Assembly: GCF_023653455.1 (NCBI RefSeq)
Contig: NZ_JAKEDR010000044.1
Coordinates: forward strand, 1 to 21,947
Source: Paraclostridium ghonii
GTDB taxonomy: Bacteria > Bacillota > Clostridia > Peptostreptococcales > Peptostreptococcaceae
Reading direction: 5' to 3'
DNA: 21,947 bases
The translations under genes were made by a program, and so were the position numbers. The notes beneath the pieces were generated by a model. The model did not search any database. It had not been told where the DNA came from and worked only from the letters and a program-made list of their open reading frames with translations. Below are positions 6,078 to 18,171 of this stretch, piece after piece (positions within the stretch are counted from its first letter, which is position 1; every line of letters starts with the position of its first letter).

Positions 6078-6111
6078 AAAAGGAATGCTTAAAGTTTTGA
6101 GCATTCCTTTT
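6078..6111 (-). terminator. Intrinsic terminator of the TauE pair
   Basis: A perfect 12-base-pair stem (AAAAGGAATGCT, 6078-6089, with 6100-6111) has a 10-base loop. Read on the minus strand it ends in a run of six T, immediately after the stop codon of the downstream TauE half. On the plus strand it also ends in TTTT, so it may terminate transcripts from the YigZ side too. Confidence 0.8.
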
Positions 6112-6487
6112 AATCTTCACATTTATTTTTATTTGGACTAAAAATTCCATTTTTAACTTCTAAAACTCCGATTATAAGTAAAAATACTCCAAATACTTTT
6201 CTCAAAATTTCTGAAGATATGTATGTTGCTAAAAAAGAGCCACATATTGCTCCTAAAATACCAAATAAAGCTATAGGTATTACTAATTTAAAAATAACAT
6301 TTTTATTTTTTATATGTATTATTAAAGCAAATATACTCATAGGTATAGATGAAAGTAAGTTTATACTTTGAGCTATTTTAGGATCAATATTTGCAAATAA
6401 TATTAAAGCCGGAATCAATATAGTCCCACCACCCATACCCATTCCTCCTATTATCCCAGAGATAAAACCTAATATAACAAGTAACAT
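6110..6487 (-). CDS. Half-size TauE/SafE-family membrane protein (second of pair)
   Basis: A 125-residue, very hydrophobic protein with about four membrane segments. It opens with the family's glycine-rich repeat motif GIIGGMGMGGGTILIP (about 11-26). TauE/SafE proteins export sulfite, sulfoacetate or other organosulfur anions and normally have about 250 residues and eight membrane segments made of two homologous halves. This protein is one half only. It starts at an ATG overlapping the stop of the other half (TAATG), with AAGGATGGTG upstream, so translation is coupled. I infer that the two halves assemble into one transporter; the substrate is unknown. Its tail ends in a short charged segment with one cysteine. 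Confidence 0.82.
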   Translation of the reverse strand: MLLVILGFISGIIGGMGMGGGTILIPALILFANIDPKIAQSINLLSSIPMSIFALIIHIKNKNVIFKLVIPIALFGILGAICGSFLATYISSEILRKVFGVFLLIIGVLEVKNGIFSPNKNKCED

Positions 6488-6855
6488 TAAAACACCATCC
6501 TTAATGCGGCTATAATCATTATAGTGCCAAAAGATATTCTTAAAAATCTTCCAGTTAACTTACAAAGAATTTTAGCTCCAATAATACCTCCAATAATACT
6601 TCCTACTGCAACTTTAAACGTAATATCTAAGTCATATGTACCTTGAGAAATATATACAAATGAACTTGTTGTTGTCAAAAATACTATTATGGCAAGTGAT
6701 GTAGCGTGAGACTTATGTTCTTCTACTTTTAAAATATTATTCAATATAGGAACTAGAAGGGTTCCTCCTCCAGATCCAAAAACTCCATTTATAAAACCAG
6801 TTACTAAGCCTATAAATGAATTTTTTATATTAAAATTTAAAAATTTTTTTTTCAT
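6487..6855 (-). CDS. Half-size TauE/SafE-family membrane protein (first of pair)
   Basis: A 122-residue membrane protein with about four hydrophobic segments and the motif GFINGVFGSGGGTLLVP (about 19-35), equivalent to the motif in the gene that follows it. I chose the ATG at 6855 because AAGGTGAT lies just upstream; an in-frame ATG at 6942 would add 29 residues that run back through the promoter region of nadE and has no good ribosome binding site. It is the first gene of a two-gene minus-strand operon and is divergent from nadE. Both halves keep the family motif and have their own start signals, which argues for a genuine two-subunit transporter and not a broken gene. Confidence 0.8.
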   Translation of the reverse strand: MKKKFLNFNIKNSFIGLVTGFINGVFGSGGGTLLVPILNNILKVEEHKSHATSLAIIVFLTTTSSFVYISQGTYDLDITFKVAVGSIIGGIIGAKILCKLTGRFLRISFGTIMIIAALRMVF

Positions 6856-6921
6856 AATATCACCTTCTTGAATTATTTTTAACATAAAGCATAAATTATA
6901 TTTAATTAAAATAAAAATATC

Positions 6922-6930
6922 TGATATAAT
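6922..6930 (+). promoter_or_regulatory. Extended -10 promoter for nadE
   Basis: TGATATAAT is a TGn-TATAAT extended -10 element 34 bases before the nadE ATG. The -35 region (near 6902) is weak, as is common with extended -10 promoters. The leader would be about 27 bases, too short for a riboswitch. Confidence 0.5.
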
Positions 6931-6963
6931 TGGAGTATCCATAAAATGTAAGGAGGAAATATA

Positions 6964-9448: not shown

Positions 9449-9505
9449 AAATGTATAAAAATTAAATAATTGGAAAAAATATCCGATATAAGGAGGTTGT
9501 TTTTA

Positions 9506-10105
9506 ATGTTCGAAAAGAAAAAAGAATTTCCTTGGCGAATACCAATTGTTATAATTTTAGGCATAGTAGTTCTCGCTGGAGGGATTTATGTAGGATTTAA
9601 ATCAACAGATAAAAATATTTCTAAAAAAGGTAATTTAGAGCAAAAAAAAGAAGAAACGTCAGCTAAAGAAACTTTCAAATTAAGCGAAGATTGTGAAATT
9701 TGGGTAGAAAAAACACTTGAAGATGGCAAACCTAGCAAAGAAGCTCCAACTATGATAGGAACTATACCAAAAGATTTAGTTGGAAAATCAAAAGATGAAA
9801 TAACTAAGTATCTATCAACTAAATATCCTAATAAAAGTATAAAAAAACTCGATACATATGAAATAACATTACAAGAAAATGAAATATTTAATGATGTTAG
9901 CAAAGCTAATCAATTTGCTATTATTGACAATAAAGGTGTGTTAAACGTTTATAAGTATAATGAAAAAGGTAACAGAGAACTTGTAGAAAATACAGAGATT
10001 GAAACGGAATCGCTACCTAAAAAAGTTCAAGAAGAAGTAAAATCTGGAATATTTGCAAAATCACAAGAAGAAATTTATTCAAAACTTGAAGACTTTGGAA
10101 GTTAA
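9506..10105 (+). CDS. Membrane-anchored BofC C-terminal domain-like protein
   Basis: A 199-residue protein with a charged N terminus, one membrane anchor (about 10-30) and an extracytoplasmic lysine/glutamate-rich domain. The C-terminal portion (about 135-199) resembles the BofC C-terminal domain: a short beta segment 'FAIIDNKGVLNVYKY', then an acidic spacer, 'LPKKVQEEVKSGIFAKSQEE' and a final short helix. In Bacillus subtilis BofC lies just before ruvAB and restrains the SpoIVB protease in the sigma-K checkpoint. The same position before the ruv genes here supports the assignment. AAGGAGG fixes the start at 9506; the in-frame ATG at 9470 lacks a site. Role in this organism is inference, because the sigma-K checkpoint differs in many Clostridia. 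Confidence 0.65.
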   Translation: MFEKKKEFPWRIPIVIILGIVVLAGGIYVGFKSTDKNISKKGNLEQKKEETSAKETFKLSEDCEIWVEKTLEDGKPSKEAPTMIGTIPKDLVGKSKDEITKYLSTKYPNKSIKKLDTYEITLQENEIFNDVSKANQFAIIDNKGVLNVYKYNEKGNRELVENTEIETESLPKKVQEEVKSGIFAKSQEEIYSKLEDFGS

Positions 10106-15219: not shown

Positions 15220-15240
15220 ATATATAAAGGAGTGATATAT

Positions 15241-15513
15241 ATGTCACAAGCAGTAGCAGGAATAATTATGTGGGTTGTACTTTTAGTAGTTTTCTATTTC
15301 TTCTTAATAAGACCACAAAAGAAAAAAGACAAACAACTTAAATCAATGAGAGAAAATTTAAATGTAGGAGATAAAGTTGTTACAATAGGTGGTATAGTAG
15401 CTAATGTAGCTAAAGTTGAAGAAGATGTTGTTATATTAGAAGTAGGACCAAGTAGAACAAAAATGCCATTTGAAAAATGGGCTATAGCATCTATACAGTC
15501 AAAAGAAAAATAA
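15241..15513 (+). CDS. yajC: Preprotein translocase subunit YajC
   Basis: YajC is a small single-pass membrane protein that joins SecDF at the SecYEG translocon. The 90-residue protein has one N-terminal membrane segment (about 5-22) followed by RPQKKKDKQLKSMRENLNVGDKVVTIGGI, which is highly diagnostic. AAAGGAGTGAT sets the start at 15241; an in-frame GTG at 15232 lies inside that site. Its place after tgt is conserved across firmicutes. secD and secF, often the next genes in other Clostridia, are not found in the part of the locus visible here. Confidence 0.95.
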   Translation: MSQAVAGIIMWVVLLVVFYFFLIRPQKKKDKQLKSMRENLNVGDKVVTIGGIVANVAKVEEDVVILEVGPSRTKMPFEKWAIASIQSKEK

Positions 15514-15576: not shown

Positions 15577-15939
15577 ATGGAAAAATCAAATAGCATATTC
15601 AAAGGATTGGGATATGCCTATATAATAACATTAATTTGTTTGCTAACTTACAATGGACTACTTACTTTTACTAGTATATCAGGGGAAAGTATAGCAATGG
15701 CAACTTCAATTATAACTACAGCTTCTGCTGCATTTGGTGGGTTTTATGCATCTAAAAAAATACAAGAAAAAGGTCTTTTATATGGTATATTAGTTGGACT
15801 ACTTTACATAGTGTGCTTAATGGTAGTTGTGTTTTTAGCTAAAGATTCTTTTGAATTTGAAATTACATCTATATATAAAGTATTGTTGACATCACTGGCT
15901 GGTGGGATAGGTGGAGTTTTAGGAGTAAACTTTAAATAA
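15577..15939 (+). CDS. TIGR04086 family membrane protein (YrzE-like)
   Basis: A 120-residue protein with four predicted membrane segments (about 10-30, 38-58, 68-88, 99-118) and little else. Size, layout, the glycine-rich 'AAFGGFYASKKIQEKG' loop and the final 'GGIGGVLG' fit the TIGR04086 family, named for its position beside SCIFF and tgt-yajC genes; the Bacillus counterpart is YrzE. Function is unknown. GGGGAGG precedes the ATG after a 63-base gap from yajC. A role in export of the SCIFF product has no direct support but the neighbourhood makes it worth testing. Confidence 0.8.
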   Translation: MEKSNSIFKGLGYAYIITLICLLTYNGLLTFTSISGESIAMATSIITTASAAFGGFYASKKIQEKGLLYGILVGLLYIVCLMVVVFLAKDSFEFEITSIYKVLLTSLAGGIGGVLGVNFK

Positions 15940-15940
15940 A

Positions 15941-15970
15941 TTTCCACTAATGTAAAATTTATGATATAAT
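15941..15970 (+). promoter_or_regulatory. Promoter of the SCIFF precursor gene
   Basis: TGATATAAT (15962-15970) is an extended -10 element, and TTTCCA (15941-15946) is an acceptable -35 box 18 bases upstream. Transcription would start near 15977, about 29 bases before the ATG. A separate promoter fits strong independent expression of the peptide. Confidence 0.5.
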
Positions 15971-16005: not shown

Positions 16006-16149
16006 ATGGAAAAGAAGCATATAAAAACTTTATCTAAAGCTACTTTAAAAGAAAGTGCGGCAAAAGGTGGATGTGGAGAATGTCAAACATCTTGTCAATC
16101 TGCTTGTAAAACTTCTTGTACAGTTGCAAATCAAGAGTGTGAAAGATAA
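16006..16149 (+). CDS. scfA: Six-cysteine ranthipeptide precursor SCIFF
   Basis: A 47-residue peptide, too short for ordinary gene calls, preceded by TAGGAGG. It has a basic leader of about 22 residues (KKHIKTLSKATLKESAAKGG) and a core with six cysteines at 23, 26, 30, 34, 38 and 45, each followed by small or polar residues such as T, S, A and Q. This is the SCIFF (six cysteines in forty-five residues) family, nearly universal in Clostridia. In characterised members a radical SAM enzyme links cysteine sulfur to a non-alpha carbon of a nearby acceptor residue, giving thioether rings (ranthipeptide class). The dedicated maturase is encoded next. Physiological role is unsettled; signalling has been suggested for some solvent-forming Clostridia. 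Confidence 0.96.
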   Translation: MEKKHIKTLSKATLKESAAKGGCGECQTSCQSACKTSCTVANQECER

Positions 16150-16170
16150 TAAATATATTATTAAAAAAGA

Positions 16171-16198
16171 AAAAGCAGCTAAAGTAGCTGCTTTTTTT
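16171..16198 (+). terminator. Strong terminator between SCIFF precursor and maturase
   Basis: An 11-base-pair stem (AAAAGCAGCTA / TAGCTGCTTTT) with a 3-base loop runs into a tract of seven T. It lies 21 bases after the SCIFF stop codon and 93 bases before the maturase start. It should end most precursor transcripts and let only a fraction continue into the maturase. Confidence 0.9.
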
Positions 16199-16215
16199 GA
16201 GTAAAATTAAATTTA

Positions 16216-16251
16216 TTGGATATAAAAGATAAATAGGCTATAAACCTATTT
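16216..16251 (+). promoter_or_regulatory. Possible maturase promoter and leader hairpin
   Basis: TTGGAT (16216-16221) and TATAAA (16239-16244), 17 bases apart, could form a promoter giving a start near 16251. The same stretch holds a 7-base-pair hairpin AAATAGG (16231-16237) / CCTATTT (16245-16251). Part of its right arm (ACCTAT) could instead pair with ATAGGT at 16264-16269. Pairing and promoter are by eye and compete for the same bases. Confidence 0.35.
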
Positions 16252-16291
16252 ATATGATAATATATAGGTATAAACAAACTAGGAGGGCATA

Positions 16292-17665
16292 ATGAGCATG
16301 ATACATAAATTTTCAATGAACGGATATAATATAGTTTTAGATGTAAATGGTGGAGCTGTTCATGTTGTTGATGAAGTTGCATACAACTTATTAGATTATT
16401 ATAAAGAAAAATCATTAGAAGAAATATTAAGTTTATTAAATAAATCTTATACAGAAGATCAAATTAAAGAAGCGTATAATGAGATAAGAACTCTAGAAGA
16501 AGAAGGTTTGCTCTATACACAAGACACATATAAACATCATCCAAATTTCATAGATAGAAAAAAAGTAGTCAAAGCTTTATGTTTACATGTTGCACATGAC
16601 TGTAACTTAAAGTGTAGTTATTGTTTTGCAGCACAAGGAGACTTTGGTGGATCTAAGGAAATAATGAGTTATGGAGTAGGTAAAAAAGCAATAGATTATT
16701 TAATAGCGAATTCGGGAAATAGAAGAAACTTAGAAATAGACTTCTTTGGTGGAGAACCATTAATGAACTTTGAGGTTGTAAAACAACTTGTTGAATACGG
16801 AAGAAGTATAGAAAAAGAAAATAACAAAAATATAAGATTTACTATAACTACAAATGGGATATTATTAGATGATGAAAAAATAAAATATATAAATGAAAAT
16901 ATGCACAATGTAGTTTTAAGTTTAGATGGAAGAAAAGAAATTAATGATAGAATGAGACCTACATTAAATGATAAAGGAAGTTATGACATAATAATGCCTA
17001 AATTTAAAAAATTAGTTGAAAGTAGACCAAAAGATAAATATTATTACATAAGAGGAACTTTCACTAGGGAAAATTTAGATTTCTCAGAAGATGTACTTCA
17101 CTTTGCAGATGAAGGATTTGAATTAACATCAGTAGAACCAGTAGTAGACGATGAAAGTAATCCATTTGCACTTAGAGAAGAAGATCTAGAAACTGTATTT
17201 AATGAGTACGAAAAACTAGCAGTTAAATACTCAGATAGATTATTAAATGGAGAAAACTTTAAATTCTTCCACTTTATGATAGACTTAAATCAAGGTCCTT
17301 GTGTAATAAAGAGAATAACTGGATGTGGAGCAGGAAATGAATATTTAGCTATAACTCCGAATGGAGATATATACCCATGCCATCAATTTGTTGGAAAAGA
17401 TGAGTTTAAATTAGCAAATATAAATGATGAAGAAATAGTAATACCAAGAGAGTTAACTGATACATTTAAAAATGCTCATGTATATAGTAAAGAAGACTGT
17501 AAGAACTGTTGGAATAAGTTTTACTGTTCAGGTGGATGTCATGCAAATGCTATGAACTTCAATGGTGATGTAATGAAGCCTTATGAATTAGGATGTGAAA
17601 TGCAAAAAAAACGTACTGAATGTTCTATAATGATACAAGCGAGATTAATGATAGAAGGGAACTAA
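16292..17665 (+). CDS. scfB: Thioether cross-link-forming SCIFF maturase, radical SAM/SPASM
   Basis: This 457-residue enzyme uses S-adenosylmethionine and iron-sulfur clusters to make thioether bonds in the SCIFF peptide encoded just upstream. Residues 1-80 form a PqqD-like peptide-recognition domain that should bind the leader. The radical SAM core has C104-x3-C108-x2-C111 (CNLKCSYC) binding the [4Fe-4S] cluster, followed by DFFGGEPLMNF. The C-terminal SPASM region carries cysteines at about 337, 345, 363, 403, 406, 412, 416, 435 and 444 for two auxiliary clusters. AGGAGGG stands before the ATG. Length and layout match the characterised clostridial enzymes. The next gene begins 5 bases after its stop. 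Confidence 0.97.
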   Translation: MSMIHKFSMNGYNIVLDVNGGAVHVVDEVAYNLLDYYKEKSLEEILSLLNKSYTEDQIKEAYNEIRTLEEEGLLYTQDTYKHHPNFIDRKKVVKALCLHVAHDCNLKCSYCFAAQGDFGGSKEIMSYGVGKKAIDYLIANSGNRRNLEIDFFGGEPLMNFEVVKQLVEYGRSIEKENNKNIRFTITTNGILLDDEKIKYINENMHNVVLSLDGRKEINDRMRPTLNDKGSYDIIMPKFKKLVESRPKDKYYYIRGTFTRENLDFSEDVLHFADEGFELTSVEPVVDDESNPFALREEDLETVFNEYEKLAVKYSDRLLNGENFKFFHFMIDLNQGPCVIKRITGCGAGNEYLAITPNGDIYPCHQFVGKDEFKLANINDEEIVIPRELTDTFKNAHVYSKEDCKNCWNKFYCSGGCHANAMNFNGDVMKPYELGCEMQKKRTECSIMIQARLMIEGN

Positions 17666-17670
17666 TTTTA

Positions 17671-18171
17671 ATGATTAAGGGGTACAAAGGAAATAAACCG
17701 AAAATTGATAGTAGTGTTTTTATAGCAGAGTCTGCAGATATAATCGGAAATGTTACTATAGGAAAAAACTCTAATGTATGGTATAACGTAGTTATAAGAG
17801 GTGATGAAAACAATATAACTATAGGTGAAAACACTAATATACAAGATGGTACGGTTGTGCATATAGAGTACAATAGAGAAACTATAATAGGAAACAATGT
17901 AACGGTTGGACATAAGGCTCTTATACATGGATGTACAATAGGAGACAATACTTTGATAGGAATGGGATCGATATTACTAGGTGGTGTTGAAATAGGTGAA
18001 TATACTTTAGTAGCTGCTGGTAGCTTAATCCCTCCAAATAAGAAAATACCTTCAGGAGTACTTGTAAAAGGAGTTCCTGCACAAGTTGTAAGGGAGCTTA
18101 CAGAAGAAGAAAAACAAAATATTGTTAATTCTGCATTAAAATATGTAGAAACTGCAAATAATTATAAATAG
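17671..18171 (+). CDS. Gamma-class carbonic anhydrase family protein
   Basis: A 166-residue left-handed beta-helix protein made of hexapeptide repeats such as IGKNSN, IGENTN, IGNNVT and IGDNTL. The metal-ligand pattern of the gamma-carbonic anhydrase group is present: a histidine in GTVVHIEYN and two in VTVGHKALIHGC. The segment VIRGDENNITIGENTNIQDG is also typical. Family members are carbonic anhydrases or related zinc or iron proteins (YrdA/PaaY type), and true carbonic anhydrase activity is often unproven. The ATG at 17671 is chosen because it matches the family N terminus and has AAGGGA 10 bases upstream; a longer in-frame start at 17620 would overlap the maturase. It follows the maturase by 5 bases, so the two are co-transcribed. 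Confidence 0.9.
   Translation: MIKGYKGNKPKIDSSVFIAESADIIGNVTIGKNSNVWYNVVIRGDENNITIGENTNIQDGTVVHIEYNRETIIGNNVTVGHKALIHGCTIGDNTLIGMGSILLGGVEIGEYTLVAAGSLIPPNKKIPSGVLVKGVPAQVVRELTEEEKQNIVNSALKYVETANNYK

Follow-up and report, generated by a model that had tools for sequence, protein, structure and literature searches.

The locus and its neighbours

The window, by which we mean the whole stretch of DNA analysed here, measures 21,947 nt and is one entire contig. It carries a gene for a 47-residue peptide (scfA) followed on the same strand by a gene for a radical SAM enzyme (scfB). Their features and those of the neighbouring genes are as follows:

15232..15513, + strand: yajC, neighbour, accessory subunit of SecDF-YajC (TIGR00739, 84.0 bits, cut-off 44.2)
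15577..15939, + strand: TIGR04086/DUF3792 membrane protein, neighbour (98.1 bits, cut-off 30)
16006..16149, + strand: scfA, SCIFF precursor, 47 aa, MEKKHIKTLSKATLKESAAKGG-CGECQTSCQSACKTSCTVANQEC-ER (TIGR03973, 84.8 bits, cut-off 50, E = 2.8e-24; PF13165, 87.1 bits, cut-off 27, E = 6.7e-25)
16072..16140, + strand: six-cysteine core, residues 23-45, read from the sequence; predicted donor Cys34 and acceptor Thr36 (alternative Thr39) by analogy with CteA
16168..16198, + strand: hairpin resembling a rho-independent terminator, in the scfA-scfB spacer (stem of 14 bp, -16.7 kcal/mol, z -4.35)
16292..17665, + strand: scfB, SCIFF maturase, radical SAM/SPASM, 457 aa (TIGR03974, 729.5 bits, cut-off 425, best family; alignment with CteB)
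16601..16624, + strand: CxxxCxxC radical SAM motif, C104/C108/C111 (cysteine positions; PF04055)
17324..17584, + strand: SPASM domain, auxiliary iron-sulfur clusters, residues 345-431 (TIGR04085, 74.9 bits)
17674..18171, + strand: gamma carbonic anhydrase-like gene, neighbour, directly 3' of scfB (NF050158, 193.6 bits, below the cut-off of 250)

The gene order in the window is ruvC-ruvA-ruvB-queA-x-tgt-yajC-DUF3792-scfA-scfB-carbonic anhydrase-like-ubiB-recJ, with 142 bases from the end of scfA to the start of scfB, and the carbonic anhydrase-like gene adjoins scfB in the mapped relatives of the family too. The hairpin at 16168-16198 carries a T-run, and of the 112 distinct adjacent pairs 58 have a comparable hairpin after scfA, where shuffled sequences would give 0.6. 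No weight is given to a promoter-like sequence at 15941-15970, ahead of scfA, as 19 such sites were found in the region and 19.3 were expected, and the Rfam search gave no match over the gathering score. No peptide transporter, protease, receptor or immunity gene was found among the scanned ORFs of the window, a scan that took in part of the short ORFs, and this agrees with the initial annotation, which had seen no dedicated transporter or protease nearby. The sole transporter-like match among these ORFs lies about 9 kb upstream and is to a TauE/SafE anion exporter in two pieces: two adjoining ORFs at 6110-6942 on the minus strand correspond to the C-terminal and then the N-terminal half of the exporter model, and the region reads as a split transporter whose halves have changed places. 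Just before ruvC, 9470-10105 on the plus strand gives a weak match (24.2 bits, cut-off 21) to the BofC C-terminal domain, which is a domain from a sporulation checkpoint protein.

The two genes had initially been read as a complete SCIFF precursor and maturase pair, and a search with the family models had been proposed as a check. Both curated models, TIGR03973 and TIGR03974, score over their cut-offs. The ORF indeed encodes 47 residues with six cysteines at 23, 26, 30, 34, 38 and 45, in the conserved SCIFF spacing, and the adjacent enzyme has the radical SAM motif and the SPASM region that had been described for it. Residues 1-451 of ScfB align with CteB (PDB 5wgg, E = 2.7e-195), its best solved relative (5wgg and 5why), and besides C104, C108 and C111 the enzyme contains ten more cysteines, of which the nine from residue 337 on match cysteines of CteB. 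The N-terminus of CteB is a leader-binding RRE (PMC8326336), and the RRE domain of ScfB is assigned by homology only, from the alignment with CteB that starts at residue 1. We regard 16006-17665 as almost certainly a SCIFF precursor and maturase pair and, by analogy with the studied homologues, a thioether is very probably made in the ScfA product. The locus itself is ordinary and typical for Clostridia, being a member of the known SCIFF family.

Several known systems can be compared with this pair. CteA/CteB (thermocellin) of Clostridium (Acetivibrio) thermocellum has, like ScfA, the fourth cysteine as donor and candidate threonines at +2 and +5 (PMC8326336); it differs in host lineage, and here the carbonic anhydrase-like gene and ubiB follow scfB. 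Tte1186a/Tte1186 of Caldanaerobacter subterraneus is also a SCIFF precursor with its maturase and has the same donor cysteine (PMC8326336). Freyrasin (PapA/PapB) of Paenibacillus polymyxa is a ranthipeptide from a related radical SAM/SPASM enzyme, with Cys-X3-Asp motifs and six links (PMC8172795), and a freyrasin-type assignment was rejected for ScfB, which scores 270.4 bits with the PapB model (cut-off 340). The orphan maturases of NF040492 (‘not_ScfB’) are close relatives of ScfB, and this family was likewise rejected, being next best at 606.7 bits, below its cut-off of 855. The nearest named relatives of ScfB belong to [Eubacterium] tenue (95%) and Paraclostridium benzoelyticum (93%), records of the window's own genome having possibly been left out, and this places the host among the Peptostreptococcaceae close to Paraclostridium. 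To our knowledge, no SCIFF product has been isolated from the lineage of Paraclostridium.

Conservation of the core and the candidate cross-link threonines

For the comparison of the core, 209 loci gave 139 distinct precursors; the 40 class genomes with the lowest scores among the 124 with scfA were included. This set was built by alignment; for 40 of the 209 loci the ORF was chosen by a five-residue core string, and all 40 of these string-chosen loci contain the ten-residue stretch SCQSACKTSC in a looser search by cysteine spacing or string. Fifteen of the 25 core positions are identical in all 139 peptides, namely C23, E25, C26, S29, C30, Q31, S32, A33, C34, K35, T36, S37, C38, N42, and C45. 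A separate set of 198 peptides, partly overlapping with the first, required the cysteine spacing, so that cysteines are invariant there by construction, and nine peptides failing the spacing, several of which look like single-residue variants, were dropped from it. For the named relatives whose locus holds both genes (67 in all), the median identity to the window is 92% for the core, 61% for the leader, and 60% for the enzyme. In the 55 relatives whose ScfB is less than 65% identical, the core still matches the window at 23 or more of its 25 positions (at least 92%), with a leader median of 56%. Antimicrobial and pheromone precursors usually show the reverse, that is, a conserved leader and a variable core. 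Judged by these alignments it is the core, not the leader, that selection preserves, under strong purifying selection across Clostridia, and a single cellular task in common is thus the likeliest role of the product.

For the fourth cysteine there are two published assignments, to Thr at +5 or to Thr at +2 (PMC8326336; PMC8172795). The former was assigned in vitro for Tte1186a and CteA and was first taken for an alpha-carbon link, the latter was assigned for CteA made in E. coli as a gamma-carbon link, and the reviews leave the discrepancy open (PMC8326336; PMC8172795). Counting from Cys34 as the fourth cysteine, the equivalents in the window peptide are Thr36 (+2) and Thr39 (+5). Thr36 is present in 139/139 distinct relatives. 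Thr39 is present in 128/139, the other 11 having glycine (L042, L139, L149, L155, L195, L201, L217, L220, L227, L230, L234), and these eleven peptides are spread over six families (f2, f8, f11, f18, f20, f22). The 198-peptide set gives a similar picture, with Thr36 in 198/198 and Thr39 in 193/198 (5 Gly). Ten of the eleven peptides come from the 148-genome sample of the class, and scfB is over the cut-off in all ten of those genomes.

Glycine lacks a side chain, which means that a beta- or gamma-carbon link at +5 cannot hold for all relatives, while one at +2 can. The Cys34-Thr36 bond would then be the conserved link, and it is moderately favoured provided that a side chain is what the sulfur is joined to; our confidence was lowered to this level because an alpha-carbon link at +5 would tolerate glycine. 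Against Thr36, the residue assigned in vitro on two homologues, Thr39, is present in the window peptide, and the invariance of Thr36 alone is weak evidence, as 14 other core positions are invariant too. The published cross-link of Tte1186a is to the +5 threonine, whereas the variation among ScfA relatives favours +2. The two reported cross-link sites thus differ in how much natural change they tolerate.

Distribution and gene order of scfA and scfB

SCIFF is described as widespread in Clostridia (PMC8326336), and 5,793 relatives of the peptide were found in protein collections at E up to 0.01. The TIGR03973 search detected scfA in 68 of the 71 genomes of the window's family, and in 245/291 and 124/148 genomes of two evenly drawn samples of the class, where absences may include stretches read as N and all absence counts are upper limits; in 14 control genomes the same search gave no match. 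scfB is over the cut-off in the same 68 family genomes and in 122 of the 148 class genomes, all 122 of which have scfA, so that none in this class sample has scfB over the cut-off without scfA. With G090, where scfB is in two pieces below the cut-off, 123 of the 124 scfA-bearing class genomes possess scfB. G164 (99% complete; L164, G164:C17) has a clear scfA at a locus without N, and no scfB over the cut-off. At another locus (L201; G074:C84:13700-14300) two tandem SCIFF matches lie in one 95-residue open frame, which constitutes a double-core precursor.

Three of the 71 family genomes gave no scfA or scfB over the cut-off. In G030 (L129, G030:C77), which belongs to the window's genus and is 75% complete, the site is empty and without N: DUF3792 is kept in place, followed by a stretch aligning to 16161-16198 (the scfA hairpin) and then by the carbonic anhydrase-like gene, with scfA and scfB both absent. 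This genome is also without spo0A over the cut-off. G047 was left out as a case of loss, as part of its locus reads N, and G048 was left out too.

In the family, 32 of 68 genomes have scfB no more than 1 kb from scfA, fragmented assemblies inflating the number of cases where the two are placed on different contigs, and DUF3792 lies directly upstream of scfA in 52 of the 52 genomes with both, at 72-183 bp between the ends of the model matches. Across the class, scfB is within 600 bp of scfA in 98/124 genomes and DUF3792 in 51/95 of those with both. Only in the family, then, is the maturase tied less firmly to scfA than DUF3792 is; across the class the proportions differ. In the mapped family loci with scfA and scfB apart (L128, L130/L131, L132/L032, L133, L135, L136, L137), the break falls between the two genes and each half keeps its own neighbours. 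A published survey that applied a 500-bp rule counted 234 radical SAM genes next to those for SCIFF and treated the pair as neighbours (PMC5300114); the family departs from this neighbour pattern.

DUF3792, spo0A and the function of SCIFF

It had been suggested that export may rely on the membrane protein at 15577-15939, and the 52/52 adjacency of DUF3792 to scfA in the family looked strong, with its proximity in 51/95 class genomes also in favour, but this candidate partner fell once its presence was compared with that of spo0A. DUF3792 and spo0A were counted only over the cut-off (200 bits for spo0A). Among the 148 class genomes, 101 have both, 10 DUF3792 only, 5 spo0A only, and 32 neither (odds ratio 65, p 1.4e-18, Fisher), the 15 discordant genomes counting against the association. 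For scfA and spo0A the counts are 88 both, 36 scfA only, 18 spo0A only, and 6 neither (odds ratio 0.81, p 0.81, Fisher), and for scfA and DUF3792 they are 95 both, 29 scfA only, 16 DUF3792 only, and 8 neither (p 0.31); DUF3792 is thus missing in 29 of the 124 class genomes with scfA and present in 16 of the 24 without a SCIFF match. These are plain Fisher tests, and collapsing to genus or family, which lessens and does not remove the effect of relatedness, gives p 1.7e-15 for 113 genera and p 1.9e-9 for 61 families with DUF3792 and spo0A, and p = 1 at both levels with scfA and spo0A. When the 123 genomes that are at least 90% complete are taken, 92 have both DUF3792 and spo0A, 4 DUF3792 only, 2 spo0A only, and 25 neither. 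Three of those with DUF3792 only have spo0A matches just short of or below the cut-off of 200 (G119, 199 bits; G081, 183.9; G147, 171.8), and G184 has DUF3792 without any such match, which counts against the link. In the 71 family genomes the corresponding counts are 52, 2, 5, and 12, and DUF3792 is absent in 16 of the 68 that bear scfA. The control genes yajC (p 0.061) and secD (p 0.13) showed no such link with spo0A in the same 148 genomes.

The B. subtilis control, in which the SCIFF model has no match, also carries DUF3792, as yrzE. In a literature search that lay mostly outside subscription papers, the one paper found on TIGR04086/DUF3792 concerns a fungus, to judge by its title, and none joins yrzE with sporulation. 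By co-occurrence, DUF3792 goes with the sporulation regulator and not with the peptide, SCIFF does not need it, and it is not part of the SCIFF pathway. The pattern suggests that DUF3792 is a sporulation-linked membrane protein, and it is very unlikely that it exports or senses the SCIFF product.

A different proposal is a secreted signal, for quorum sensing or for sporulation, whose export would rely on machinery encoded elsewhere. In the solventogenic C. beijerinckii, disruption of the precursor and enzyme genes is reported to have lowered sporulation genes and raised agr, and the same source adds that a tie between SCIFF and sporulation could not be made in C. ljungdahlii (PMC8102284); SCIFF has also been tabulated as quorum sensing (PMC8326336). 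Sporulation is unlikely as the general purpose of SCIFF, because spo0A over the cut-off is missing in 36 of the 124 class genomes with scfA (and in 13/68 in the family), and the effects on sporulation and agr may be real in C. beijerinckii as a host. The SCIFF core, near-identical across families, differs from species-specific pheromones known in other systems, and the scanned window ORFs include no exporter, protease or receptor; the relatives were mapped with the window proteins only, a mapping that would overlook such genes. A secreted signal is on balance rather doubtful. Antimicrobial activity is known for several radical SAM thioether peptides (PMC8326336), so a bacteriocin with unusual maturation might be considered, but no immunity or transport gene is among the scanned window ORFs, the peptide is near-universal and near-invariant in Clostridia, and its wide spread has been held to argue against an antimicrobial role (PMC8326336); we consider this reading highly improbable.

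One reading takes the position of scfA between yajC and secD in many lineages as a sign that its product acts together with the SecDF-YajC translocase accessory complex. Of the 121 class genomes with both yajC and scfA, 66 have them no more than 3 kb apart; for secD, a distance of at most 3-3.5 kb from the pair is seen in 55/101 (using the rows of 117 genomes, of 125 with any secD match), and nine genomes keep scfA near both genes with scfB elsewhere (G073, G082, G090, G124, G140, G151, G179, G192, G201). On the other hand, 41 of the 124 class genomes with scfA have no yajC, secD or DUF3792 nearby, SecD has no match in the window's genome (G000) nor in the other sampled family members G038 and G044, although all three have yajC, and retention of an old gene order explains the pattern equally. 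No literature joining SCIFF with YajC was found in the same search, mostly outside subscription papers, and an action with this complex seems distinctly unlikely. A further idea, in which SCIFF would be neither signal nor weapon but a conserved peptide that stays inside the cell and may act at the Sec membrane complex, is put forward because of the frozen core, the independence from spo0A, the lack of an exporter beside the pair in the window, and the frequent stay of scfA by yajC and secD even where scfB has moved away; we regard it as speculative and unlikely in this specific form. The overall pattern speaks more for a conserved task in common than for a variable signal, and a conserved housekeeping task for the product is somewhat probable.

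The preferred reading is that of a standard SCIFF locus with a leader-guided thioether and a conserved product for a shared task, to which as a whole we assign a probability of roughly 0.73. According to this model, ScfA would be translated as a leader (about residues 1-21) and a core (about 22-47), and the N-terminal domain of ScfB would bind the leader. The radical SAM cluster of ScfB would abstract a hydrogen from the acceptor side chain, and the sulfur of Cys34, held by an auxiliary cluster, would close the thioether, most likely to Thr36 in a Cys-X-Thr arrangement. This chemistry is drawn from the studied homologues. Most transcripts would stop at the terminator after scfA, so that the peptide transcript may exceed that of the enzyme, with scfB expressed by read-through or from its own promoter. 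The product would serve a shared cellular task and not act as a variable pheromone or bacteriocin, and DUF3792 would not be its dedicated exporter. The transcript ratio, the shared-task function, and the place of action are all inferred.

Few modified peptides of Clostridia are as widespread as SCIFF, and the present comparison narrows what its job may be: a general purpose in sporulation is unlikely, and the membrane neighbour of the precursor gene follows the sporulation regulator.
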